Position numbers and translations under genes: made by a program
Shown: piece after piece, positions 9,251 through 24,080 of the stretch
Layout: the number at the start of each line of letters is the position of its first letter
Position numbering within the stretch: the stretch's first letter is position 1
The notes under the pieces: generated by a model
Database searches by the model: none
The model's input: the letters and a program-made list of their open reading frames with translations, nothing else
What the model was told of the DNA's origin: nothing
From: Syntrophotalea acetylenivorans
GTDB taxonomy: Bacteria > Desulfobacterota > Desulfuromonadia > Desulfuromonadales > Syntrophotaleaceae
Reading direction: 5' to 3'
Assembly: GCF_001887775.1 (NCBI RefSeq)
Contig: NZ_CP015519.1
Location: forward strand, 434,001-498,000
Length of the DNA stretch: 64,000 bases

Positions 9251-9649
9251 GGATGTGATACTTTCTGTATAAGAGCTTGTAGGACTTTCCAGGAACCGAC
9301 TGCAAAATTGCCTGACCGGTCCATATTTCCGAGAATTTTCGCCAAATAGCCCTGCTATTCGCTCTCAAATTCTCAATAATCTGGCCTTGAACAGCCAGTT
9401 TTTCGTTTCGGCCCGTTAAGTCCGACAGGCTCATAGACAAATAAAAAACCGCAGGGGTGATCCCTGCGGTCCACGGAACTGCGAAACATATCATTTAAAT
9501 CCTTCTGCTTGCAATCAAATTCTGCTTTTAAATCGCGGTTCAAGGCAATTATTAGATTGATTTAGCTGTTCCCTTTAGCTATTTCCCAGTAACCTGATGG
9601 GCAGACTTTTATAAAACATTTCAACTCTATTTTTCAGCAGGGAAACACC
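9251..9649. other. Intergenic region with possible leader ORF and attenuator of the ABC-F gene
   Basis: Apart from the terminator at 9443-9470, the minus strand shows an ATG at 9494 preceded by AGAAGGA at five-base spacing. Its first codons (MICFAVPWTAGITPAVFYL) run straight through the terminator stem, and the frame stays open to 9198, overlapping the ABC-F start. A translated leader could therefore control whether the terminator folds. This is inference; the plus-strand promoter of the methyltransferase gene must also lie here. Confidence 0.4.
9443..9470 (-). terminator. Terminator in the leader of the ABC-F gene (minus strand)
   Basis: On the minus strand ACCGCAGGG, a five-base loop and CCCTGCGGT (9470-9448) are followed by a run of T residues, a textbook intrinsic terminator. 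No minus-strand gene ends here: the next gene upstream on this strand is far away and the neighbour at 9650 runs the other way. It sits about 190 bases before the ABC-F start codon, so it may be a transcription attenuator for that gene or the end of a small RNA. Confidence 0.65.
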
Positions 9650-10306
9650 ATGGACAGATCATCTCGCAATCGTCTTAATCATCGCCATAGTCATCTGTTT
9701 AGCGAAGAGACCCTGTTCCACCGTATTGCTCGCTCGGTGTGCCGCGCTGAATGTTTGCCCCGCAAAGAATTATTTGAGGCTTGGGAAATGGCCCGCCGGG
9801 TGCGACGCCGGTTTCGCGGTGGAAGAGTCATCGATCTGGCATGCGGTCATGGTCTTCTGGCGCATGTACTGCTGGTGCTGGACGACAGTTCGGCCGAGGC
9901 GCTGGCGGGGGATGTGCGTCTACCGGAGAGCGCCGGCAAGTTGGCAGCCGTTCTGCAGTCTGACTGGCCCCGCTTACAGGGGCGCATTCACTTGATGGAG
10001 CAACGCATCGATACCATAGAAATCGACAGGAATGATCTGGTGGTTTCGGCTCATGCCTGCGGCGGGTTGACGGATCAGGTGATCCAGGCGGCGATCAAGG
10101 GGAAGGCCAGGGTCGCGGTACTGCCCTGCTGCCACGACTTGCACAATGCGGATGACGGAGGTCTGCGGGGCTGGATGGATGGTCCGCTGGCCGTGGACGC
10201 CGCAAGGGTGGCACGGCTGCGAGGGGCCGGTTATCGAGTCTACACGCAGACGATTCCAGCGGCAATTACTCCGAAGAACCGCCTGCTAATGGCCGAGCCT
10301 GAATGA
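9650..10306 (+). CDS. SAM-dependent methyltransferase-like protein
   Basis: A 218-residue protein. Residues about 59-70 (RVIDLACGHGLLAHVL) form the glycine-rich SAM-binding loop, and the later block DLVVSAHACGGLTDQVIQAA followed by VAVLPCCHD resembles the Methyltransf_32/METTL25-like group, where an Asn/Asp-Pro-Pro-Tyr-like loop is replaced by PCCH. The substrate is unknown; relatives act on RNA or proteins. The N-terminus is Arg/His-rich. The ATG follows CAGGGAAACACC. It stands alone between the ABC-F leader and a small hypothetical gene. Confidence 0.65.
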   Translation: MDRSSRNRLNHRHSHLFSEETLFHRIARSVCRAECLPRKELFEAWEMARRVRRRFRGGRVIDLACGHGLLAHVLLVLDDSSAEALAGDVRLPESAGKLAAVLQSDWPRLQGRIHLMEQRIDTIEIDRNDLVVSAHACGGLTDQVIQAAIKGKARVAVLPCCHDLHNADDGGLRGWMDGPLAVDAARVARLRGAGYRVYTQTIPAAITPKNRLLMAEPE

Positions 10307-10427
10307 TTTTATAGTGGTTAGGCCAAGGCCTGTGGGCTGGGAGTAGCGGCGCTGGACAAACCTGTCTGCTTGCGCTTATTCTGGAGTAGTTAGTAAAGTC
10401 AATGCCCTGTTACCGAGAAGGCTGATT

Positions 10428-10805
10428 ATGCTCGATATCTCCTCCCGCCAGCAGTTGCAAGCCCTCCGGCTGAATCCTCTCAATCAGCTGGCCTCCCTCA
10501 AGCTGAAGCAGGCCGGTGTTGCTGAAGATCGGGCGGTCCTGCCGATTTTCTGCCTGATGGAATGGGGCTTGGCAGGAGGGCGGTTTTGTTCCACTCGGCG
10601 CCTGCCGCAGGAACTGTTGCGCCTGCGCCTGATGGCCGATCAGCAGGCGGCGGTTTCCTACCTGCTTGACAACTTACCCGGCGGCTTGCCTCAACTGCAT
10701 CGCCAGTTGCTTCGTATGTCTCCGAAGGGGGCGGCCGAGGCCTTACTCGAGGTACTTGACATGCGCCTGAGGGCCGACCCGCGTAATCCCTATCCGTTAT
10801 CGTGA
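10428..10805 (+). CDS. Hypothetical protein, Leu/Arg-rich
   Basis: A 125-residue soluble protein that I do not recognise. It is rich in Leu, Gln and Arg and looks mostly alpha-helical, with two amphipathic stretches (residues about 5-35 and 60-110). There is no signal peptide, membrane segment or cysteine motif. The ATG follows CGAGAAGGCTGATT. It ends 51 bases before the M24 peptidase start and may be co-transcribed with it. Codon use is like that of the neighbours, which supports a real gene. Confidence 0.6.
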   Translation: MLDISSRQQLQALRLNPLNQLASLKLKQAGVAEDRAVLPIFCLMEWGLAGGRFCSTRRLPQELLRLRLMADQQAAVSYLLDNLPGGLPQLHRQLLRMSPKGAAEALLEVLDMRLRADPRNPYPLS

Positions 10806-10856
10806 TGCCTTTACCATTATTTTATGGCTTTTTTGATATTTCCCGAGGAGAAAACC

Positions 10857-12044
10857 ATGCAGGTTCCATTAAGTGAATTACAAGAGCGAATGATCCGTTT
10901 CCGCGCTCAGATGGATCGAGTCGACCCCGAGTGGCAGTCTGCTGCGATCTTTGGGCGCGTCAACCAGTACTATTTAACCGGTACCATGCAGGATGGCCTG
11001 TTGTGGATTCCGCGAGACGGCGAGGCCGTGCTGTGGGTGCGCAAAAGTTTCGAACGGGCGATGGATGAGTCGCTGTTTGACCGCATCGAGACCATGAACA
11101 GCTTTCGCGACGTGGCTGCGGCGGTCGGTAATCTTCCGGATCGCTTGCATGTCGAATGCGAATTGTTGCCTTTAGCTCTGCTGCGTCGCTTGCAAAAACA
11201 CTTTCCCATCAACGATATCCGTCCGGCTGACGGTGCACTGGCCGCTGTGCGTGCCGTCAAGAGCCCTTACGAACTTGAACTGATGGAGCGCTGCGGTGAA
11301 GTACACAGGCGGATTCTCGAAGTACGGTTGCCGGAGATGCTGCAGGCAGGGATGAGCGAGGCAGACCTGGCGGCCCGTCTCTATGCCGTAATGGTCGAGG
11401 AGGGCCATCACGGAGTGGCCCGATTCGCCATGTTTCAGGCCGAAGTGGCTCTTGGCCACATCTGTTTCGGCGAAAGTTCCCTCTATCCCTGTAGTTTTGA
11501 CGGCCCGGGAGGCAACTACGGTCTGCACCCGGCTGTGCCTTTGCTCGGCAGTCGATTGCACCGTTTGGCCAAAGGTGATCTGGTCTTCGTCGATATCGGC
11601 TGTGGGGTAGAGGGGTATCATACCGACAAAACTTCCACCTATATGTTTGGCGAACCGATCGATGATGAAGCGATGGCTGCCCACCATCAATGTGTGGAGA
11701 TTCAGAATCGTATTGCAGAACAGTTGCGTCCCGGCGCCGTCCCTTCAGCAATCTATGAGCAGGTCATGGACAACCTGGAGGGAGAGTTTCTTGATAATTT
11801 CATGGGGTTCGGCTCCCGTCCGGCTCGGTTTTTCGGTCATGGCATCGGCTTGCAGATCGATGAGGCTCCTGTTATCGCCAAAGGCTTCGACGAGCCTCTG
11901 CAGGAAGGGATGGTACTGGCCCTGGAACCTAAAAAAGGCATCCCCGGGGTCGGAATGGTCGGTATCGAAAATACCTTCATCGTGACTGCCCAGGGGGGGC
12001 GTTGTATTACCGGGGATCATCCGGGGCTGATGCCTGTTTACTGA
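10857..12044 (+). CDS. M24 family metallopeptidase (Xaa-Pro aminopeptidase-like)
   Basis: A 395-residue cytoplasmic peptidase with a creatinase-like N-terminal domain (residues 1-140) and a pita-bread catalytic domain. The five metal ligands are visible in order: two Asp in VFVDIGCGVEGYHTDKTST, His in RFFGHGIGLQIDE, Glu in LALEPK and Glu in VGIENTF. It should remove N-terminal residues preceding proline or a similar bond; creatinase-like or dipeptidase activity is also possible. I choose the ATG at 10857 because GAGGAG lies six bases upstream; an ATG at 10824 lacks one. Two hairpin terminators follow. Confidence 0.85.
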   Translation: MQVPLSELQERMIRFRAQMDRVDPEWQSAAIFGRVNQYYLTGTMQDGLLWIPRDGEAVLWVRKSFERAMDESLFDRIETMNSFRDVAAAVGNLPDRLHVECELLPLALLRRLQKHFPINDIRPADGALAAVRAVKSPYELELMERCGEVHRRILEVRLPEMLQAGMSEADLAARLYAVMVEEGHHGVARFAMFQAEVALGHICFGESSLYPCSFDGPGGNYGLHPAVPLLGSRLHRLAKGDLVFVDIGCGVEGYHTDKTSTYMFGEPIDDEAMAAHHQCVEIQNRIAEQLRPGAVPSAIYEQVMDNLEGEFLDNFMGFGSRPARFFGHGIGLQIDEAPVIAKGFDEPLQEGMVLALEPKKGIPGVGMVGIENTFIVTAQGGRCITGDHPGLMPVY

Positions 12045-16399: not shown

Positions 16400-18586
16400 T
16401 TGAATAATCAAGATTCTAATATGAAGATGTTCCTGCCCATCAGGTTCATCCTTCGTTCATTTGTGGCTTTGTTTACCGGCTTTTTGTTGCTTGGGGTCGG
16501 TTCGAGCTCTGCGGGAATGCCCCGTGACCCTGAAAGTTTTGAGGTCAACCGTCAGCGACTTCTTTCCTATCTGCTTTCTCAGCAGTTAACCCAGAACCAC
16601 TATCGTGATCTGGCACTTGACGATCATTTTTCCACTGCGGCTTTTGATTTATATATTCAACAGCTGGACAGCCAGAAACGTTTTCTGTTGAAAAAAGACT
16701 TAGATGCCTTGCGGTTCTATGAACACCAGATCGACGATGAGGTACTTAGTGGATATCTGAAATTGCCCACGGTAAGTGCTGATTTGCATCGCCAGCGAAT
16801 CGACGAGGTAGAGTCTGTGATACGCCAAATCATGACCAAAGGGTTTGATTTGCGCCGCAAAGAATCTTTTGAAACCGATCCCGAAAAGCTGGATTACTGT
16901 CAAGACCGGAACGAACTTCGTGAGCGCTGGCGTAAAACGCTCAAATATCAGGTCTTGTCTCGCTATCTCGAGTTGTTGGACGAGCAGGGCGATGTGGTAT
17001 CCAAGACTCCTTCCATGCCGAAGGGGTACCGGGTCGATGAGGAGCTGCTGGCTACTGCTAAAGAGAAGGTTCTGAAATCAATTGAACAATTACTGATACG
17101 TTTGAGGCAGATTACACAGCGCGAATATGTCGATCGGTATTTCGATGCTGTGTGTCGCGCCTTTGATCCCCATACCAATTATCTTGCTCCTGCAGAAGAA
17201 GAGGAATTCGAAATCAGTATGAAAGGATCACTGGAGGGGATTGGTGCCACCCTGCAGCAAGACGATGGTTACATTAAGGTTGTCAGTATTGTCCCCGGTA
17301 GTCCAGCCTTTCGTCAGGGGCAACTTGAGGCCGAGGATATTATCCTCAAAGTCGCCGAGGGAGCCGACGAACCCATCGATATTGTAGATTCCCGGCTACG
17401 GGATGCCGTACGTCTCATTCGGGGCAAAAAAGGCACGGAGGTGCGCCTCACCGTGCGAAAGCCTACTGGTAGACAACAAGTGATACCGATCATTCGGGAT
17501 GTTGTGCAGATTCAGGAATCTTTTGTTCGCTCGACTGTGCTTTCTTCGCCTGCAGACCGCCAAGGACGCTTCGGTTATATTCGCATTCCGACTTTTTATC
17601 GTGATTTTTTTGATCACGATAAGGACAGTACCCCCCGTAACTGTACCGATGATGTCCAGGCTGCCCTGGAAAAACTTGGTGCCAGTGATATCGAGGGACT
17701 CGTTATCGATTTACGCAATAATGGCGGCGGTGCTTTGACGGATGCAGTGCAAATTGCAGGACTGTTCATCAGGCAGGGACCGATTGTGCAGGTTAGAGAC
17801 AGCAATGGCCGAATTTCTGTGCTTGAAGATAAAGATCCTGAGGTGGCCTTTGATGGACCTTTGATCGTATTGGTTAATCGCTTCAGCGCCTCAGCCTCTG
17901 AAATCCTTGCGGCAGCTCTGCAGGACTATCGCCGGGCCCTGGTCGTAGGTGACCATGCAACCCATGGTAAAGGAACCGTACAGACAGTTCTAAATCTTGA
18001 CAGGGCCTTGCCTCCGGAGAGTATGGATCAGTACCGTCCCCTTGGTGCCATGAAATTGACATTGCAGAAATTTTATCGGGTTAGCGGTGGATCTACTCAG
18101 GTACAGGGGGTTGAACCGGATCTTCTTCTTCCCGACCCGCTGCCCTATGTCCAGAGTGGAGAGCGGTATACGGATTATGCCCTGCCATGGGATACCATTG
18201 CACCGGTTTTATATACACCTTGGCGAACATCTTCTTTTGACATCGATTCATTACGCGCTGCGAGCCGAAAGAGGCTGGCCGCCTCTCCTCGATTTAAGAT
18301 ATTAACCGAGTTGCGAAAACGAAGTCAGGACCGGGGCGGAATTACAGAACGCTCGCTGGAATTGGGTGACGTGTGGCAAGAACTCAGTGAAATTAAAAAG
18401 GCGCAAAATGCCGATGCTGCTGTCAAGTCGACCCAAAAAGTTCTGGAAGACCCTACTGGTGATGATTGGTTGACCCGTTTAGAAAATGATTTGTTTGTCG
18501 GTGAAGCAATGCAGATTCTTGCAGACTTAAAGGGAAGTCAGCCCGTTGTCAACAAATTGACAAAAGCCACAGAGAAGGGCCTTTAA
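16400..18586 (+). CDS. prc: Tail-specific protease (C-terminal processing peptidase, S41A)
   Basis: A 728-residue periplasmic protease related to E. coli Prc/Tsp. After a signal peptide (about residues 10-38) come the N-terminal DUF3340-like region, a PDZ domain (residues about 270-360, MKGSLEGIGATLQQDDGYIKVVSIVPGSPA type), and the S41 catalytic core with VIDLRNNGGGAL, the nucleophile region RFSASASEI and the lysine in HGKGTVQ, forming a Ser-Lys dyad. It trims C-termini of envelope proteins and affects outer-membrane homeostasis. Start is uncertain: TTG at 16400 follows GGAG by 11 bases; ATG at 16421 lacks a clear binding site. The envelope operon beginning at 18858 is the next locus. Confidence 0.9.
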   Translation: MNNQDSNMKMFLPIRFILRSFVALFTGFLLLGVGSSSAGMPRDPESFEVNRQRLLSYLLSQQLTQNHYRDLALDDHFSTAAFDLYIQQLDSQKRFLLKKDLDALRFYEHQIDDEVLSGYLKLPTVSADLHRQRIDEVESVIRQIMTKGFDLRRKESFETDPEKLDYCQDRNELRERWRKTLKYQVLSRYLELLDEQGDVVSKTPSMPKGYRVDEELLATAKEKVLKSIEQLLIRLRQITQREYVDRYFDAVCRAFDPHTNYLAPAEEEEFEISMKGSLEGIGATLQQDDGYIKVVSIVPGSPAFRQGQLEAEDIILKVAEGADEPIDIVDSRLRDAVRLIRGKKGTEVRLTVRKPTGRQQVIPIIRDVVQIQESFVRSTVLSSPADRQGRFGYIRIPTFYRDFFDHDKDSTPRNCTDDVQAALEKLGASDIEGLVIDLRNNGGGALTDAVQIAGLFIRQGPIVQVRDSNGRISVLEDKDPEVAFDGPLIVLVNRFSASASEILAAALQDYRRALVVGDHATHGKGTVQTVLNLDRALPPESMDQYRPLGAMKLTLQKFYRVSGGSTQVQGVEPDLLLPDPLPYVQSGERYTDYALPWDTIAPVLYTPWRTSSFDIDSLRAASRKRLAASPRFKILTELRKRSQDRGGITERSLELGDVWQELSEIKKAQNADAAVKSTQKVLEDPTGDDWLTRLENDLFVGEAMQILADLKGSQPVVNKLTKATEKGL

Positions 18587-18857: not shown

Positions 18858-19397
18858 ATGAAAAAGACCATTCTGCTGATAGTGGGCCTTAGCGTATTCT
18901 TGTTGTCCGGTTGCTACGTTTGCAACAAGGCGAATTGGCCGGAGCAGCCGGTGTTGGATCATATGAACACTATGCAAAAGACCCAATACCTTAACGATGT
19001 TAAACAGAACCTGATCAACTTTAGAACGACGGCAGTCGATTTGGAAAGTCATCGATTACCCCATCGCCCCGATGAAGATCCTGCAGATTGCCAGCGGACA
19101 GGGTTTCATTGCGAAGTTGCCAGGTACGTTGAAGTTTACGCCATGCCTGTCCTTAATGACGGCGAGGCGCTGCAAAACCTGGAAACCCGGCTTGAGGTTG
19201 CTAAAATAAATCTGCTGAGTGCTTACGCCTTATATGAAACGGGCAGTTTCGGTCAGGCACGCAGCCTGCTCAAGATGTATGACAAACGGTATCGCAAGGA
19301 TGTCGCCATCGAAACGGCTATGGTCGATAACCGTGATATGGAATTCGCCACGCTTGGCGAGGCCGCACAAAACCTGCGTTCCAAATTGACTAATTAA
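18858..19397 (+). CDS. Hypothetical lipoprotein, first gene of the envelope-energising operon
   Basis: A 179-residue lipoprotein. Signal peptide ends VFLLSGC, with Cys20 as the lipidation site, followed by YVCN, so a second Cys is close by. The mature part is helical (residues about 40-179), with a possible intrachain disulfide (C79, C87 region: ADCQRTGFHCEV). The start is the ATG at 18858, seven bases after AAGGAG. It precedes the TolQ-like gene by 45 bases. By analogy with Tol-Pal or Ton-linked loci it may be the outer-membrane-anchored partner, but no known domain is recognised. Confidence 0.7.
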   Translation: MKKTILLIVGLSVFLLSGCYVCNKANWPEQPVLDHMNTMQKTQYLNDVKQNLINFRTTAVDLESHRLPHRPDEDPADCQRTGFHCEVARYVEVYAMPVLNDGEALQNLETRLEVAKINLLSAYALYETGSFGQARSLLKMYDKRYRKDVAIETAMVDNRDMEFATLGEAAQNLRSKLTN

Positions 19398-19442
19398 TGC
19401 CTTTTTGAATTTCAACAGCATCAGTAAGGGGACTAACAAGAC

Positions 19443-20087
19443 ATGTTTAATGCCCTATCCGAGTCAATCATCAATACCTTGACCTACCTTATTAATACCT
19501 ATTCCGGTTTGTTGCAGGTAACCGTCTATTTCATCATGCTTTGCGTATTTGGGTTTGCGCTGATCAAGTCTTATCTTTCTTTTTGCGCACTGACATCTTT
19601 TGATTTCAAGACCCTTAAGAGCCGCAAGCAACTTCATAATTTGCCCGCCAATTTGCGGACTCCGGTGATGATTATCGCCGCGTCCTTTTTTGACAAGGCG
19701 AAACAACACTATCTTGAAGAGAAGATTAACAACCCGGCTTCCGAAAAGGTCATTCCGCCCGATGCGTTTATACGCGATGCTGCTTTTCAGTTCAGTGAAC
19801 GTTATTTCGAGGAGAAATTTCTTTCCCCTATCAGCATGATGGCCAACTTGATGCCCCCATTGGGCTTTATCGGTACCATCATCGGTATGGTAGTACACTT
19901 TCTGTCCAATAGCGGCACTTTGAAGAGCGATTTGGCCATCGCCGGTATTGCTACCGCATTGTATACAACCTTTATCGGTCTGGTTTGTTTCACCATTCTC
20001 GAGTTTCTCAAAAAAGTTTTTTATGGTTTGTTGCACAAGCGAATCGATCAGGGCCTGGCGGCCGTCGCTGATTTTGATCAGGACTAA
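19443..20087 (+). CDS. MotA/TolQ/ExbB family proton-channel protein
   Basis: A 214-residue inner-membrane protein with three predicted transmembrane helices: residues about 23-47, 128-150 and 160-186, and a cytoplasmic domain between the first two. The block MPPLGFIGTIIGMVVHFL and the last helix AIAGIATALYTTFIGLVCFTILEF match the conserved TM2/TM3 core of ExbB/TolQ, including the small-residue TxxxG positions that line the proton path. It should form a pentameric stator that uses the proton motive force with the downstream TolR-like protein. The next gene starts 18 bases downstream. Confidence 0.85.
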   Translation: MFNALSESIINTLTYLINTYSGLLQVTVYFIMLCVFGFALIKSYLSFCALTSFDFKTLKSRKQLHNLPANLRTPVMIIAASFFDKAKQHYLEEKINNPASEKVIPPDAFIRDAAFQFSERYFEEKFLSPISMMANLMPPLGFIGTIIGMVVHFLSNSGTLKSDLAIAGIATALYTTFIGLVCFTILEFLKKVFYGLLHKRIDQGLAAVADFDQD

Positions 20088-20105
20088 CCGGAGTATAGGT
20101 GCAGG

Positions 20106-20576
20106 ATGAAAAATAAAAACGGTCAAACCTGGCTCTTTTCTTTTACGGACTTGGCTTTTCTATTGTTGATCAGTTTGAGTACGATTCCGGTTGCCGACAG
20201 CGTCACTATCCGCTTTTCTGAAATGGATGTGCCCGTGGTTCCGGAAAGTCAACAACTTGGAGCCCTTGGTCAGTTAAGGGAAGTCTGGGAACTTCAGGTT
20301 CATCCAGTCTCCGCAGAATATCCGGTCCCTTATAAGATTGTCCGTTTCGGACTCACGAGTCAGGTGGATGGCGAGGGAGCCCAACTGCTTGCTCCCGCGC
20401 AACTGATGGATGCCCTGGAAAATTTGAAAGCGCGAAATATTCAGCCTGTCCTGTTGCCCGAGAAAACCTCTCTTACTCAAGATTTGCTTTATGCCGCTGG
20501 TGCAATGGCGAAGGTCTGGGGAATGGAGTATAGCGAGACTGTGGTGCAGCCGGAAATACTTGAGGAAGGCTCTTAG
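20106..20576 (+). CDS. TolR/ExbD-like single-pass protein
   Basis: A 156-residue protein with a short cytoplasmic N-terminus, one transmembrane helix with an embedded acidic residue (SFTDLAFLLLISLSTI, Asp15) and a periplasmic domain of about 120 residues. The buried Asp in an otherwise hydrophobic helix is the hallmark of ExbD, TolR and MotB proton-coupling subunits. The periplasmic part ends with LLPEKTSLTQDLLYAAGAM, roughly where ExbD/TolR have their last helix. Its position directly after the TolQ-like gene supports the call, although overall similarity to named families is weak. The next start codon lies two bases after the stop. Confidence 0.75.
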   Translation: MKNKNGQTWLFSFTDLAFLLLISLSTIPVADSVTIRFSEMDVPVVPESQQLGALGQLREVWELQVHPVSAEYPVPYKIVRFGLTSQVDGEGAQLLAPAQLMDALENLKARNIQPVLLPEKTSLTQDLLYAAGAMAKVWGMEYSETVVQPEILEEGS

Positions 20577-20578
20577 GT

Positions 20579-21889
20579 ATGGAGTTTGGCAAAGAGAGCC
20601 TTTACGGATGGGGGGTGTGCCAGGTGCCCATGCCCCGTGCCCGGAATGATATTTATGCCGATCGCCGTTGTGCACAGCAGTCGGTGGCTTTTCCTGACCG
20701 TCGAACCAATCGATTCTTTAGGCCATTTGCCGCTATTTTTACTGCTATTATACGGGAAGACTTTCCTGCTATGCATACGGTTATAGTGGTTCTGGTCGCT
20801 ATCCTGCTGTTGCTCATTTTTGGCCTGCACACCCGCCCCGATTCTCCTTTAGTTGAACCGCCTGTCGTTGAACCCATCGAAATTGTCACCAGACTGTTGA
20901 AAGAACCGCCGGCCGAGCCCCTTGTTGCTGTCGAACCAGTAATGGTTAAGCAGCAGCCGGAGCCCCTGCCGATTGAAGAGAAGACCCTTGAGCAGACTAA
21001 GCCGATTGAAAAAATAATACAGGTGAAACCGAAGAAGATTTTGGCATTGCCACCAGCCAGAATTCTTCCCAAGCCACGTAAAGTACAAGAAAAGGTTGCG
21101 TTGCCGGTCGAGAAATCGCTGCCGATGCCGAAAAAGACCGTTACTTTAGCGGTTCCCGTGCGACAGGCTCCGGTGCTGGACACCCCTGCTCCTTCACGAC
21201 AGGCCAGTAAATACACGCTAGCCTCCACACCACAGCCTCTTTTGGCGGCAGACAGCCCGGCCTTAGGAAGGCGTAACCAGGAGAGCCTTGTGGTTTCACC
21301 GAAGGCTTCTGCCGTGATTGATTACAGTTTGAAGCCAAGTTCTTTCGGTCAACAGGCTTTAGCCCCGGCCAAACAATTTGCTCCGACGGCACCGGGGACA
21401 ACCGTCGACTTGCCCAGTACCAGCCATTCTCGCAGTGATTTCTCTATGCCTAGCAGTCAAGGCGGGCATGCAGTCGCCCAGGCTGGCCGCTCCTTCGCTC
21501 CTCAGCCGGGTCAAAGCCCGGTCGACATTGCAGCGGTTGGCCAGGTAGGTGGGAGTTATGTCACCCCCAGTAATTCGACAGCTGCACCCTTGGCCACGGG
21601 CAGGGTGAGTGATTTTTCCGGCCCTGCAGCAACAGCTTCAGTTCAATTGCCGACAGCTTCCCGACGTGGTGCAGTCGCTGTTTCAGGCTCAGTGAACAGT
21701 GCCGCCGGCAACGGCCCCCCGATAGTTCCGTCAATTTTGTCGGTGAGGGTGAAGCAGGGGCCGACCCGAACCTTTTCATCAGCCTCAATCAGCTTGGCGC
21801 CTGTGTCGATCAGAGCGAAGAGGATCGCTTGCGTACCGAACTGGCTATTCGGCTCGATGAAGGGGGTGTTTTCCCCTGTGGCGAAATGA
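20579..21889 (+). CDS. TonB-like proline-rich inner-membrane protein (frame breaks near 21720)
   Basis: The frame encodes a short Arg-rich N-terminus, one membrane helix (HTVIVVLVAILLLLIFGL, about residues 66-83), then a Pro/Glu/Lys-rich spacer (residues 85-210) and a Ser/Ala/Pro-rich region with loose repeats. This is the layout of TonB and TolA, which reach across the periplasm. The listed frame ends at 21889, but a natural C-terminal domain continues in another frame from about 21721 to 22014; adding one C to the CCCCCC run at 21715-21720 joins them into about 478 residues. Start: ATG 20579 is coupled to the upstream stop; ATG 20771, right at the helix, is an alternative. Confidence 0.65.
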   Translation: MEFGKESLYGWGVCQVPMPRARNDIYADRRCAQQSVAFPDRRTNRFFRPFAAIFTAIIREDFPAMHTVIVVLVAILLLLIFGLHTRPDSPLVEPPVVEPIEIVTRLLKEPPAEPLVAVEPVMVKQQPEPLPIEEKTLEQTKPIEKIIQVKPKKILALPPARILPKPRKVQEKVALPVEKSLPMPKKTVTLAVPVRQAPVLDTPAPSRQASKYTLASTPQPLLAADSPALGRRNQESLVVSPKASAVIDYSLKPSSFGQQALAPAKQFAPTAPGTTVDLPSTSHSRSDFSMPSSQGGHAVAQAGRSFAPQPGQSPVDIAAVGQVGGSYVTPSNSTAAPLATGRVSDFSGPAATASVQLPTASRRGAVAVSGSVNSAAGNGPPIVPSILSVRVKQGPTRTFSSASISLAPVSIRAKRIACVPNWLFGSMKGVFSPVAK

Positions 21890-22014
21890 AATTTCACATC
21901 GATTATGTTGAGACCGGGCAGACAGTGCAGATGCGTATCTACAATCCGCGTAATTTTGCCGATAAGTGTGCAGCGTTACTTTCAGCTATCGAATGTATCA
22001 ATCATTCCAAATAG
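21721..22014 (+). other. Out-of-frame C-terminal domain of the TonB-like protein
   Basis: In the frame one base off from the preceding gene, these codons read from DSSVNFVGEGEAGADPN through LNQLGACVDQSEEDRLRTE, EGGVFPCGEMKFHIDYVETG and RIYNPRNFADKCAAL to a stop 11 bases before the next start codon. Composition is that of a folded mixed alpha/beta domain with four cysteines, in contrast to the low-complexity spacer before it, and resembles in size a TonB-type C-terminal domain. It is most simply the true C-terminus of the gene at 20579, displaced by a one-base loss in the poly-C run. Confidence 0.6.
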
Positions 22015-22025
22015 TGAGGAAGCCT

Positions 22026-24080
22026 ATGAAATTGTTCAGATTTGCATTAATCGTACTGTTTGTCTGTCTGGTCCCCACCATGGTCATGTCCCAAACGAGT
22101 ACCGGGCAATGGGATAACCTGCTTGATGTTACCTATCGCTTCAGCTGGTATCCTCAGGAGGATCTGCAGCAATTACTGGCTGAAAAGGGAGCTGAGTACG
22201 GACAGACACTGGAAGGGTATCGAGACCAGTTACGCCAGGACCTACAGATCGAGACTGGGGCGGAGGGTCGTATCGTCGGCCAGGTGACCGCAGAGGGCCA
22301 GCAATGGAAGAAATTTTATCATCTTTCCCTGGCAGAATTCTGTCTTTACCTGTCCAACGGGGAAGGGGTACAGCTGGAAAATGCACAGGCTGTGATGGGA
22401 GTCCTGTCAGGCAAGGCACAACAGTCCGATGTGGCCTTTTGGCTTTATCTTTATTCTGCTTACCAGCAGATGCTTGCTAAGGATGCCCGGGGCTTCAGTA
22501 ATGCTGTGTATGATCTGTGGCAGAATGTCGTGCTGAAGCTGGAGGTCGACAATCTGCGTATTCAACGTGAGATAGGTAAAGCCGGCTTTGTCAAAAGTCT
22601 ACCTTATCTCTATGAAAATGTGGCTCACCTCATCATTCGGCGGGCTATTGTAGAAGAGCAGATTCCGGGACTCTCTCCTCTGGGAGTTATTATCTTGTCC
22701 ATTGAAGACAAGCTCACCGTGGAAAATGGTTATCGGACTGTTGTCGAAGCGACTGTTGAGCGAATGCGCGGTCTGAACTCGGACAATTACAATCTTAACT
22801 TTGCCGTAGCATTTCTTGAGGCCATCGCCAGCCGTAATGCTTTTGAGGGAGAGCAGAACCCCGATCTGCTGGTCGCCAAGTATCAGAGAGCGGAGGCCTT
22901 TTATCGCCTGGCCTGGGAATGGGCAGACAGCCGCAAAGGCAAGGCAGCTGTGCTCAGCCAGCACATGAGTTTTTCTACTTATGTGACTCGCCGCCTTAGC
23001 GACTCTGCTGATTCTTTAGCTGCCGATCCATTTTTTAGCGACTTGCCGTCAGCCGCAGATCGACAATTGGACCAGGCCATCGATCTGTATAAAGAATTGG
23101 CCGATCCTCGGGTTCAAGAGGGAGAATTCATTTCGGCGGGCTTCTATGAGCGTACTAATTATCTTGCCGCTATGCATAAATTGTGGGATTCCACAGCCAA
23201 ACTCGGCATTATGCTGTCCGGGTATTATGAGAGTACCCGCCAGGCGGTATTGCATGGGCAGCTTTTCCCTGCGGAAAGCCCGCTTCTGAAATATCTTGCC
23301 CTGTTTGAAGAGCATGCCGTTAACGATTCCGATATCGTTCCGGATAACGCCTATTTTTTGGCCGCCTATGCGGCTGGCGAGTTGGCAGACCTCTATCGCA
23401 AACTTGGCGATTATTCAACGGGTTCCCAGGCCAGTGAACTCTTCTTTGCTTATCAACTTCAGGCGGTGGAACTCTTTCCCATCGATATCGTTGGGATCCT
23501 GCAACTTGCCTATCAGGCAAATCAAGATGGCAGGGTCGAAGACTACTTCCATTACAGCAATCAGATCGGCCAGCGGTTACAGGATTTAGCGGTTGGTCAT
23601 CAGGGCTCAGCTTCAGGTTCTGGTGATTACACAACTATTGTTGGCCATATGTATAATGATATTCCTCAGGTCATGGCCAATGCTTATTCTCTGGTAAATT
23701 TTATTCAAGAGGCCGGCGGTACTGAAGAGGGCATGTACCGCAAGGCCTTGGCTATGAATCGTGTATTGCAGACCGTAGAGAATAAAACCTCGGATGATTT
23801 TCTTGAGCGGCTGATGTTGGCTTTGGGACAAGCAGATTTTAGTGAAGGTGTAATCGCTCTTGACCCCAAAATGGGCGAAGATGTACCGCCGGCCGAGTTT
23901 GCAAAAATCCAAGGGATATTGAGTGAAGTTTCCGGGTATCGGTTTAACAGGATCAAAAATGAGCTGTATGCTTCTCTAAGCAGCCCGATGCACAAGGTGT
24001 TACGCAACCTTTTCCACGAAGTGCCTTACGAAGAGCATCAGTATCCAAAGCTGCTGAAGGCCGTTCATCCTGGATCTTGA
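22026..24080 (+). CDS. Large exported helical protein, last gene of the envelope operon
   Basis: A 684-residue protein with a clear signal peptide (MKLFRFALIVLFVCLVPTMVMSQ), cleaved near residue 22-23. The mature chain is almost entirely alpha-helical and Tyr/Leu/Ala-rich, with stretches such as AYFLAAYAAGELADLYRKLG and LLVAKYQRAEAFYRLAWEW that look like TPR or Sel1-type helical pairs, though no canonical repeat can be fixed. Start at ATG 22026, preceded by GAGGAA. It is probably periplasmic and the last member of the five-gene operon. I do not recognise the family. Confidence 0.7.
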   Translation: MKLFRFALIVLFVCLVPTMVMSQTSTGQWDNLLDVTYRFSWYPQEDLQQLLAEKGAEYGQTLEGYRDQLRQDLQIETGAEGRIVGQVTAEGQQWKKFYHLSLAEFCLYLSNGEGVQLENAQAVMGVLSGKAQQSDVAFWLYLYSAYQQMLAKDARGFSNAVYDLWQNVVLKLEVDNLRIQREIGKAGFVKSLPYLYENVAHLIIRRAIVEEQIPGLSPLGVIILSIEDKLTVENGYRTVVEATVERMRGLNSDNYNLNFAVAFLEAIASRNAFEGEQNPDLLVAKYQRAEAFYRLAWEWADSRKGKAAVLSQHMSFSTYVTRRLSDSADSLAADPFFSDLPSAADRQLDQAIDLYKELADPRVQEGEFISAGFYERTNYLAAMHKLWDSTAKLGIMLSGYYESTRQAVLHGQLFPAESPLLKYLALFEEHAVNDSDIVPDNAYFLAAYAAGELADLYRKLGDYSTGSQASELFFAYQLQAVELFPIDIVGILQLAYQANQDGRVEDYFHYSNQIGQRLQDLAVGHQGSASGSGDYTTIVGHMYNDIPQVMANAYSLVNFIQEAGGTEEGMYRKALAMNRVLQTVENKTSDDFLERLMLALGQADFSEGVIALDPKMGEDVPPAEFAKIQGILSEVSGYRFNRIKNELYASLSSPMHKVLRNLFHEVPYEEHQYPKLLKAVHPGS

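Follow-up and report, generated by a model that had tools for sequence, protein, structure and literature searches.

The window analysed here, the whole of a stretch of 64,000 nucleotides from Syntrophotalea acetylenivorans (NZ_CP015519.1, positions 434,001 to 498,000), carries a cassette of five genes, designated A to E, that lie head to tail on the + strand between positions 18858 and 24080 (list of open reading frames, ORFs, of the window), with gaps of 45 (A/B), 18 (B/C), 2 (C/D) and 11 (D/E) bases. The cassette joins a known class of motor to an undescribed, conserved output block. An earlier note, made from the sequence alone, had described five elements in a row with gaps of 45 bases or less; all of them are present on this strand in that order and the gaps agree, but gene D is split here and does not form a single open frame. 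The features are the following.

18858..19397, + strand: gene A, exported lipoprotein of 179 amino acids, first gene of the cassette (ORF, alignment)
19443..20087, + strand: gene B, ExbB/TolQ-type proton channel subunit of 214 amino acids (PF01618, tree, PDB relative)
20106..20576, + strand: gene C, single-pass ExbD/TolR-like protein of 156 amino acids with Asp15 in its membrane helix (alignment)
20579..21889, + strand: gene D, frame 1, YGWG N-terminus, one membrane helix and Pro-rich linker (ORF, motif scan)
21715..21720, + strand: C-run where the frame of D changes, D being intact in relatives (comparison with relatives)
21742..22014, + strand: gene D, frame 2, Cys-rich C-terminal domain of the transducer (alignment of 19, AF2 model)
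22026..24080, + strand: gene E, exported protein of 684 amino acids modelled as an alpha-solenoid, signature protein of the system (ORF, model, profile searches)

No Pfam or NCBIfam family was found above cut-off for A, C, D or E, and neither TolB nor Pal is among the five genes according to the same two libraries; the note had said as much of A, of E and of the locus. Promoter and terminator scans of the cassette gave matches at chance level.

B matches PF01618 (MotA_ExbB; E 3.7e-10, 40.1 bits for a cut-off of 22.9), and TolQ 9avi is the sole relative found for it in the PDB (E 0.005). Its Thr145 and Thr175/176 are invariant in 12/12 aligned proteins and correspond in position to the pore threonines in the second and third membrane helices of TolQ/ExbB; together with the family match, they bear out the proposed ExbB/TolQ-type channel. 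In the distant locus L055, B scores 21.7 bits with PF01618, slightly below the cut-off of 22.9. The 18 cassette B proteins put into a tree of 29 channel proteins form one clade (support 100/99), separate from the TolQ, ExbB and MotA that the window's genome encodes; the program warned of long branches, those of TolQ and MotA among them, and the placement of TolQ is unsure. C has one N-terminal hydrophobic helix, in which Asp15 is invariant in 15/15 aligned proteins. To this extent it is the TolR/ExbD-type protein that had been announced, but no Pfam family, PF02472 included, is matched at E<=1. An hhalign comparison with seven ExbD-type proteins pairs its helix, insignificantly, with that of ExbD (Prob 2.2). 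The reading of C as the equivalent of ExbD is supported by the PF02472 proteins that fill the B-C slot in the relative L058 (see below), the sequence of C alone being insufficient. By homology, the motor is of the ExbB/ExbD class.

At the C-run 21715-21720, the frame of D that begins at 20579 parts from the conserved domain, and it meets a stop at 21889; the conserved C-terminal domain (QLGACVDQSEED...IECINHSK) sits in another frame that ends at 22014. Because D is one intact frame in L027 and L028, two relatives from the same genus, the split in the window's genome is either a sequencing slip in the C-run or a real frameshift. The parts of the claimed TonB/TolA-like, Pro-rich spanning protein with a separate C-terminal domain are therefore present, but not in one frame here. 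The linker is about 15% Pro, and a cytoplasmic YGWG motif is found in the window and in 12 named relatives. The C-terminal domain (about 90 amino acids) has two Cys that are invariant in an alignment of 19/19 proteins. Its AF2 model (pLDDT 79) is alpha-beta-beta-beta-alpha with a short first strand and has no significant match in the PDB (lowest E 0.5 with Foldseek; Z of at most 2.6 with VIA). D has no TonB or TolA match in Pfam, and hhalign gives a Prob of 0.2 between its C-terminal domain and the TolA of the same genome. An early guess that this domain is TolA-like, made from the Cys spacing, was dropped, as there was no PDB match and hhalign gave nothing. The S..H (SHLS) helix motif of the TonB/TolA type was scored in 19 D proteins with an approximate pattern of our own; the D of L064 (53-1420) is the only one to have such a TonB-like motif, yet its C-terminal domain is of the cassette type. 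The motor genes of L064 fall beyond the contig end.

A has its lipobox Cys at residue 19, conserved in 12/12 aligned orthologues, and is helical with a TPR-like hairpin, all TPR matches being below cut-off. The N-terminus of E is signal-peptide-like (by eye), and its model is an all-helical alpha-solenoid (pLDDT 77; Foldseek best E 0.016; VIA Z about 10 to many helical repeats). The modelled E resembles TPR-type repeats only loosely, and "TPR-like solenoid" is as far as its fold can be assigned. Searches of PDB sequences with C, the C-terminal domain of D and E gave no significant match (best E 0.056), and the window's E has no match in 72,556 plasmid records. A second, longer E paralogue of roughly 860-890 amino acids directly follows E in L055, L056, L122, L124 and L126. 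In the genus g4, E is split into two frames in L066 (genome G113; 9545-11589) and over two contigs, C55 and C70, in G118.

E was found in 18/136 genomes of the order (single-protein search), in 38/277 genomes of the class (21-row profile) and in 7/395 genomes of an evenly drawn phylum sample, one of which (G177, 66 residues) is marginal. A smaller E profile also gives 7/395 in the phylum sample, the marginal one being then G304, which has stops inside; these two matches lie outside the class and were excluded from the carriers. When B was searched against named genome contigs, 12 loci were obtained, all of them metagenome bins, of which 10 are titled Desulfuromonadales, Desulfuromonadaceae, Desulfuromonas or Pelobacter, one Desulfobacteraceae and one Deltaproteobacteria. 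The sister group of the class that also bears the cassette is presumably Geobacter-like.

Reading was extended to 41 E-bearing loci (the window, 11 named loci and 29 others), which cover 36/38 of the class genomes by coordinate matching; L062 and L063, which repeat L034 and L037, and L026, which stops before E, are not among them. L061, L064, L067 and L125 were left out of the order count, as their contigs either start within D or shortly before it, or contain nothing but part of E. A, B, D and E share one order and strand in every one of the 37 loci that are complete, the window among them (a contig end cuts A in L059 and E in L030). In 35 of the 37, a C of this family lies between B and D; the remaining two have another ExbB/ExbD-type motor in the B-C slot. 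In the short loci of G119 and G121, D adjoins E. The named loci, which supplied part of the profiles, were themselves first recognised by tblastn with the proteins of the window, apart from A of L035-L037, which was recognised by clustering only. L055-L061 and L064-L067 were found with profiles that do not contain them, and L119-L136 with profiles that hold only kin of theirs. The flanking genes vary between lineages while the cassette stays constant, and the five genes therefore behave as one unit. Linkage in relatives had been set beforehand as a test of the proposal. The common order and strand of the 37 complete loci, with C of this family or, in two of them, a motor variant in the B-C slot, show that the genes are not unlinked. 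On these counts, the five-gene arrangement far exceeds what chance would produce.

Two genomes of another class, represented by L057 and L058, have clear homologues of A (E-values of 1.6e-16 and 1e-12), of the C-terminal domain of D (5e-11 in both) and of E (1.4e-163 and 1.6e-156), as judged with profiles built without them. In L058, the B-C slot encodes PF01618 twice, the second copy being fused to PF02472 (ExbD), and a further PF02472 protein (Pfam); the layout is the same in L057, by eye and from weak matches to the B profile. Their channels group with Glt-type channels (81/98) and not with cassette B. Since A, D and E are carried there on other channels, the output block A-D-E is, as the homologies indicate, combined with two kinds of proton motor.

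The window's genome contains four other PF01618 genes and three PF02472 genes (profile scan). From their neighbourhoods, these correspond to a Tol-Pal locus, two ExbB-ExbD pairs and flagellar MotAB, TolQ and TolR being assigned by profile and TolA, TolB, Pal, CpoB and MotB by eye. The class also has core operons of the Glt type (L086-L090), made up of TPR lipoproteins, ExbB, ExbD and an NF033768 transducer; their identity is taken from NF033768 and gene order, not from M. xanthus sequences. NF033768 (AgmX/PglI) is above cut-off in 28/146 class genomes, was not found in the window's genome at E<=0.001 and gives no match at E<=0.1 to the D of L027, L055, L058 or L060. The genomes G001, G102 and G198 hold both the cassette and a Glt-type locus, on another contig or about 350 kb away. 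When compared with five Glt-type loci, B is matched by their channel (down to 1.3e-6), and A, D and E have no match among their TPR proteins and transducer (best E 0.012). According to hhalign, the Prob is 0.4 between D and the Glt-type transducer and 0.5 between E and a Glt-locus TPR protein, and A aligns with the Glt-locus TPR lipoprotein by its signal peptide only. An identification of the cassette as an Agl-Glt core complex was rejected, as NF033768 and the TPR homologues were not found. No standard Tol-Pal or Ton accessory family, the outcome that the earlier note had named as fatal to its proposal, is above cut-off for A or E. Judged by its own B clade (100/99) and by A, C, D and E being without family, the cassette is distinct from known systems.

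A small outer-membrane beta-barrel is a recurrent neighbour of the cassette in relatives. PF13505 is present in 7/7 scanned neighbours (L031, L056, L122, L123, L124, L126 and L119), five of which also have AMIN, one OmpA and one TSP3 repeats above cut-off. An AMIN-like end is seen by eye in L055, in L125 and in the protein of L133 (genus g298), Pfam not listing AMIN for L119, and the barrels of L065 and L061 have TSP3-like tails (by eye). AMIN and OmpA domains bind the cell wall; TSP3 is not known as a wall-binding domain. A barrel lies within 1 kb of the cassette in 22/41 loci, one of which, L032, has a truncated remnant (2413-2748), an apparent loss of the partner within genus g4. It adjoins the cassette in 8/12 evaluable genera of the class (g4, g9, g55, g57, g298, g299, g303 and g313; six of these belong to two families, f22 and f23, and are not independent); among the 16 genera overall, g40, g41, g49 and g297 have contigs that end too soon for evaluation. 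Where the barrel shares the strand of the cassette, it is located either upstream or downstream; elsewhere it is downstream and convergent, and the linkage was thus made or kept in three arrangements. Chance alone would place a barrel within 1 kb in no more than about 1% of genomes (rough estimate: barrels x 3 kb / genome length). Outside the class, no barrel is in the sequence seen for L035, L036, L057 and L058, and L059 is without flanks. The window's genome has two barrels of the PF13505 neighbour type, neither of them inside the window. The output of the machine, which had been called open, thus has a candidate in relatives but not in the window's own genus; we infer a partnership between cassette and barrel. 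Upstream of the cassette, the window also holds a Prc/Tsp-type protease-like gene (by eye; 16400-18586), which adjoins the cassette in loci of the window's family.

In genus g298, the cassette has further neighbours. In 11/12 of the cassette genomes of this genus (L119-L121 and L129-L136), LapG (PF06035) is on the cassette contig within about 9 kb and the start of a retention-module adhesin follows E; LapG, adhesin and barrel were not found in the twelfth (G598, L128). Among the genomes listed in the barrel scan of the class, seven of g298 lack the cassette (G547, G556, G562, G565, G570, G596 and G597), and none of them has a LapG match, which argues that cassette and Lap genes come and go together in this genus. 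The L119 stretch includes LapD (PF16448, 154 bits; NF045673, E 2.5e-104, below cut-off, the protein being cut by the stretch end), LapG (above cut-off for PF06035 and, at E 3.3e-79, below it for NF045674), TolC (above cut-off for TIGR01844), a barrel-OmpA protein, A-B-C-D-E and a giant adhesin that has VCBS and RTX repeats as well as a LapA retention module (NF033682, 55.2 bits for a cut-off of 50). As an OmpA-like protein, SO4321 of Shewanella, is a known part of Lap-type loci (PMC4523816), the g298 neighbourhood may be one island. LapG is found in 13/38 cassette-bearing and 46/239 other genomes of the class, the 13 being the 11 of g298 plus G119 and G120, where it is on another contig; PF06035 has no match in the window's genome. 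A general link between cassette and Lap genes was rejected, LapG being present in only 13 of the 38 cassette genomes.

Combining these data, we consider it somewhat better than an even bet (roughly 55%) that the cassette is a distinct, self-contained, proton-driven trans-envelope system acting on an outer-membrane barrel. Its operation could be pictured as follows. A pentamer of B and a dimer of C, both by analogy, would form a motor of the ExbB/ExbD type, in which the flow of protons past Asp15 of C and the pore threonines of B would be converted to movement. D would be located in the inner membrane beside this motor, its Pro-rich linker crossing the periplasm and presenting the Cys-rich, probably disulfide-bonded C-terminal domain, and would carry the work of the motor across the wall. 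At the outer membrane, this pull would be taken up by the periplasmic alpha-solenoid E and by A, an outer-membrane lipoprotein in most species. The load would most likely be the small beta-barrel, anchored to the wall through AMIN or OmpA in most lineages. TolQRA pulls on wall-bound Pal; in much the same way, although its output proteins are unrelated, the machine would mobilise or put tension on a tether between outer membrane and wall, a tether that in g298 would be tied to a LapA-type adhesin system. The homology of the motor, the conservation of the cassette and its distinctness are established by sequence comparison; the stoichiometry of the motor, the direction of the force and the contacts between A, E and the barrel are what we infer. 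A bolder version, in which the cassette is a proton-driven winch that moves or tensions wall-anchored barrels, and thereby giant surface adhesins, under the control of cyclic di-GMP (c-di-GMP) and Lap, with a block of A, E and the C-terminal domain of D inherited whole and re-motored at least once, appears unlikely.

Several observations weigh against the proposal that the cassette pulls on a barrel. With regard to the proteins, D is frame-shifted in the window's genome, its C-terminal domain has no significant likeness to TolA and the S..H motif is absent in 18/19 D proteins, window included, so that docking on the motor must differ from that of TonB/TolA. The periplasmic part of C has no significant likeness to ExbD (hhalign), and the lipidation Cys is absent from the A of the distant L057, which is no lipoprotein. 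As for the barrel, none adjoins the cassette in g1 (the genus of the window), g3, g5 and g15, where the flanks were seen, nor in 2/5 g4 loci (L033 and L066) and 1/12 g298 loci (L128), and the TSP3-type barrel of g4 is without a known wall-binding domain. Moreover, nine of the neighbouring barrels went into the profile by which they are scored, which deprives the scores of independence, and such barrels occur in 234/277 class genomes at E<=1e-10, with up to eight per genome; the partner could therefore be any of them or none.

Rather than tensioning a tether, the motor may drive surface motion or handle adhesins, acting through D, E and A to move, load or tension adhesins or polymers of the cell surface, as a gliding- or Lap-like machine to which the barrel would be an outer-membrane partner in the manner of Agl-Glt/Nfs. 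The continuity, in 11/12 g298 cassette genomes, of the cassette with LapG and a giant adhesin bearing the LapA module, completed in L119 by LapD, TolC, barrel-OmpA and VCBS/RTX repeats, points in this direction, as does a composition that parallels the Agl-Glt core (PMC3169522; Glt-type locus L088). We nevertheless hold this explanation to be rather doubtful: 25/38 cassette-bearing genomes are without LapG, g298 may represent one island with a single insertion event, given that OmpA-like proteins are known in Lap-type loci, and A and E have no profile match at E<=0.01 to Glt-locus TPR proteins (best 0.012). Between a barrel tether and surface motion or adhesin handling, sequence does not decide.

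It is improbable that the cassette energises uptake or export of the Ton type, D opening an outer-membrane channel for a substrate. The ExbB/ExbD-type motor, the Pro-rich spanning protein and the TonB-like helix motif in the D of L064 would fit such a role, but no TonB-dependent receptor was noticed beside the cassette (ORF lists read by eye, flanks not scanned systematically), the recurrent barrel is of the small OMP_b-brl type and the C-terminal domain of D shows no significant likeness to TonB/TolA in Pfam, in a profile comparison with the TolA of the same genome or in fold searches. A Ton accessory operon was likewise rejected, as no receptor was noticed by eye, D has no TonB match in Pfam and 18/19 D proteins are without the S..H motif. 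Similarly low is the probability of a lineage-specific Tol-Pal duplicate that would stabilise the outer membrane during division. It could account for a TolQRA-like logic accompanied by a lipoprotein and, in relatives, by a barrel with AMIN or OmpA; yet TolB and Pal are not in the cassette, a Tol-Pal locus is already present elsewhere in the window's genome, B falls outside the TolQ branch of that genome (a long branch of unsure placement) and a cassette found in only 38/277 class genomes is not housekeeping. A plain duplicate of Tol-Pal was rejected on the first two of these grounds.

Few outputs of the ExbB/ExbD-type motor class are known, and further systems of this class remain to be discovered (Williams-Jones et al. 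2025, PMC12204202). No description of the five-gene system was found among the papers listed by searches of the open-licence PMC literature. The cassette is a well-delimited such system in Desulfuromonadales and the sister group of the class, and its conserved genes, replaceable motor and recurrent barrel offer a concrete route to new mechanical work at the bacterial surface.

Among known systems, Tol-Pal shares with the cassette a proton-channel pair, a spanning transducer, a periplasmic protein and a lipoprotein, to which relatives' cassettes add a wall-binding outer-membrane neighbour. Unlike in Tol-Pal, B is outside the TolQ branch, C is without PF02472, A and E are without family, neither TolB nor Pal is encoded and no likeness was found between the C-terminal domains of D and TolA. 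ExbB-ExbD-TonB has the same motor class and, like D, a Pro-rich linker, but the helix motif of TonB is missing in 18/19 D proteins and the C-terminal domain of D has no TonB match. To Lap/Bpf loci (LapD-LapG-TolC-LapA with the OmpA-like SO4321; PMC4523816), the cassette is physically joined in one genus; no such motor is described for these loci in the passages of that source that were consulted, and most cassettes are without Lap genes. The newly recognised vWA force transducers, also driven by a motor of the ExbB/ExbD type, are encoded near tolQ/tolR-like genes and a TPR gene, and have a C-terminal vWA domain and often SHLS (PMC12204202), whereas D has a Cys-rich domain of 90 amino acids and mostly no such motif. 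Agl-Glt uses this motor class too (PMC3169522), and Agl-Glt/Nfs resemble the cassette in combining a channel, ExbD-type proteins, a Pro-rich transducer, helical periplasmic proteins and a lipoprotein (PMC3169522, PMC3858216), although D is without the AgmX/PglI domain and A and E are without match to Glt-locus TPR proteins. According to PMC3858216, these machineries have a modular build and might conceivably associate with other motors, and the cassette shows the same modular combination of motor and output. The earlier note had called the gene set a third, self-contained version of the Ton and Tol machines: a distinct system it is, as far as sequence relationships go, but "third" undercounts a class that includes Agl-Glt and the vWA transducers as well as GldLM, MotAB and Zorya.

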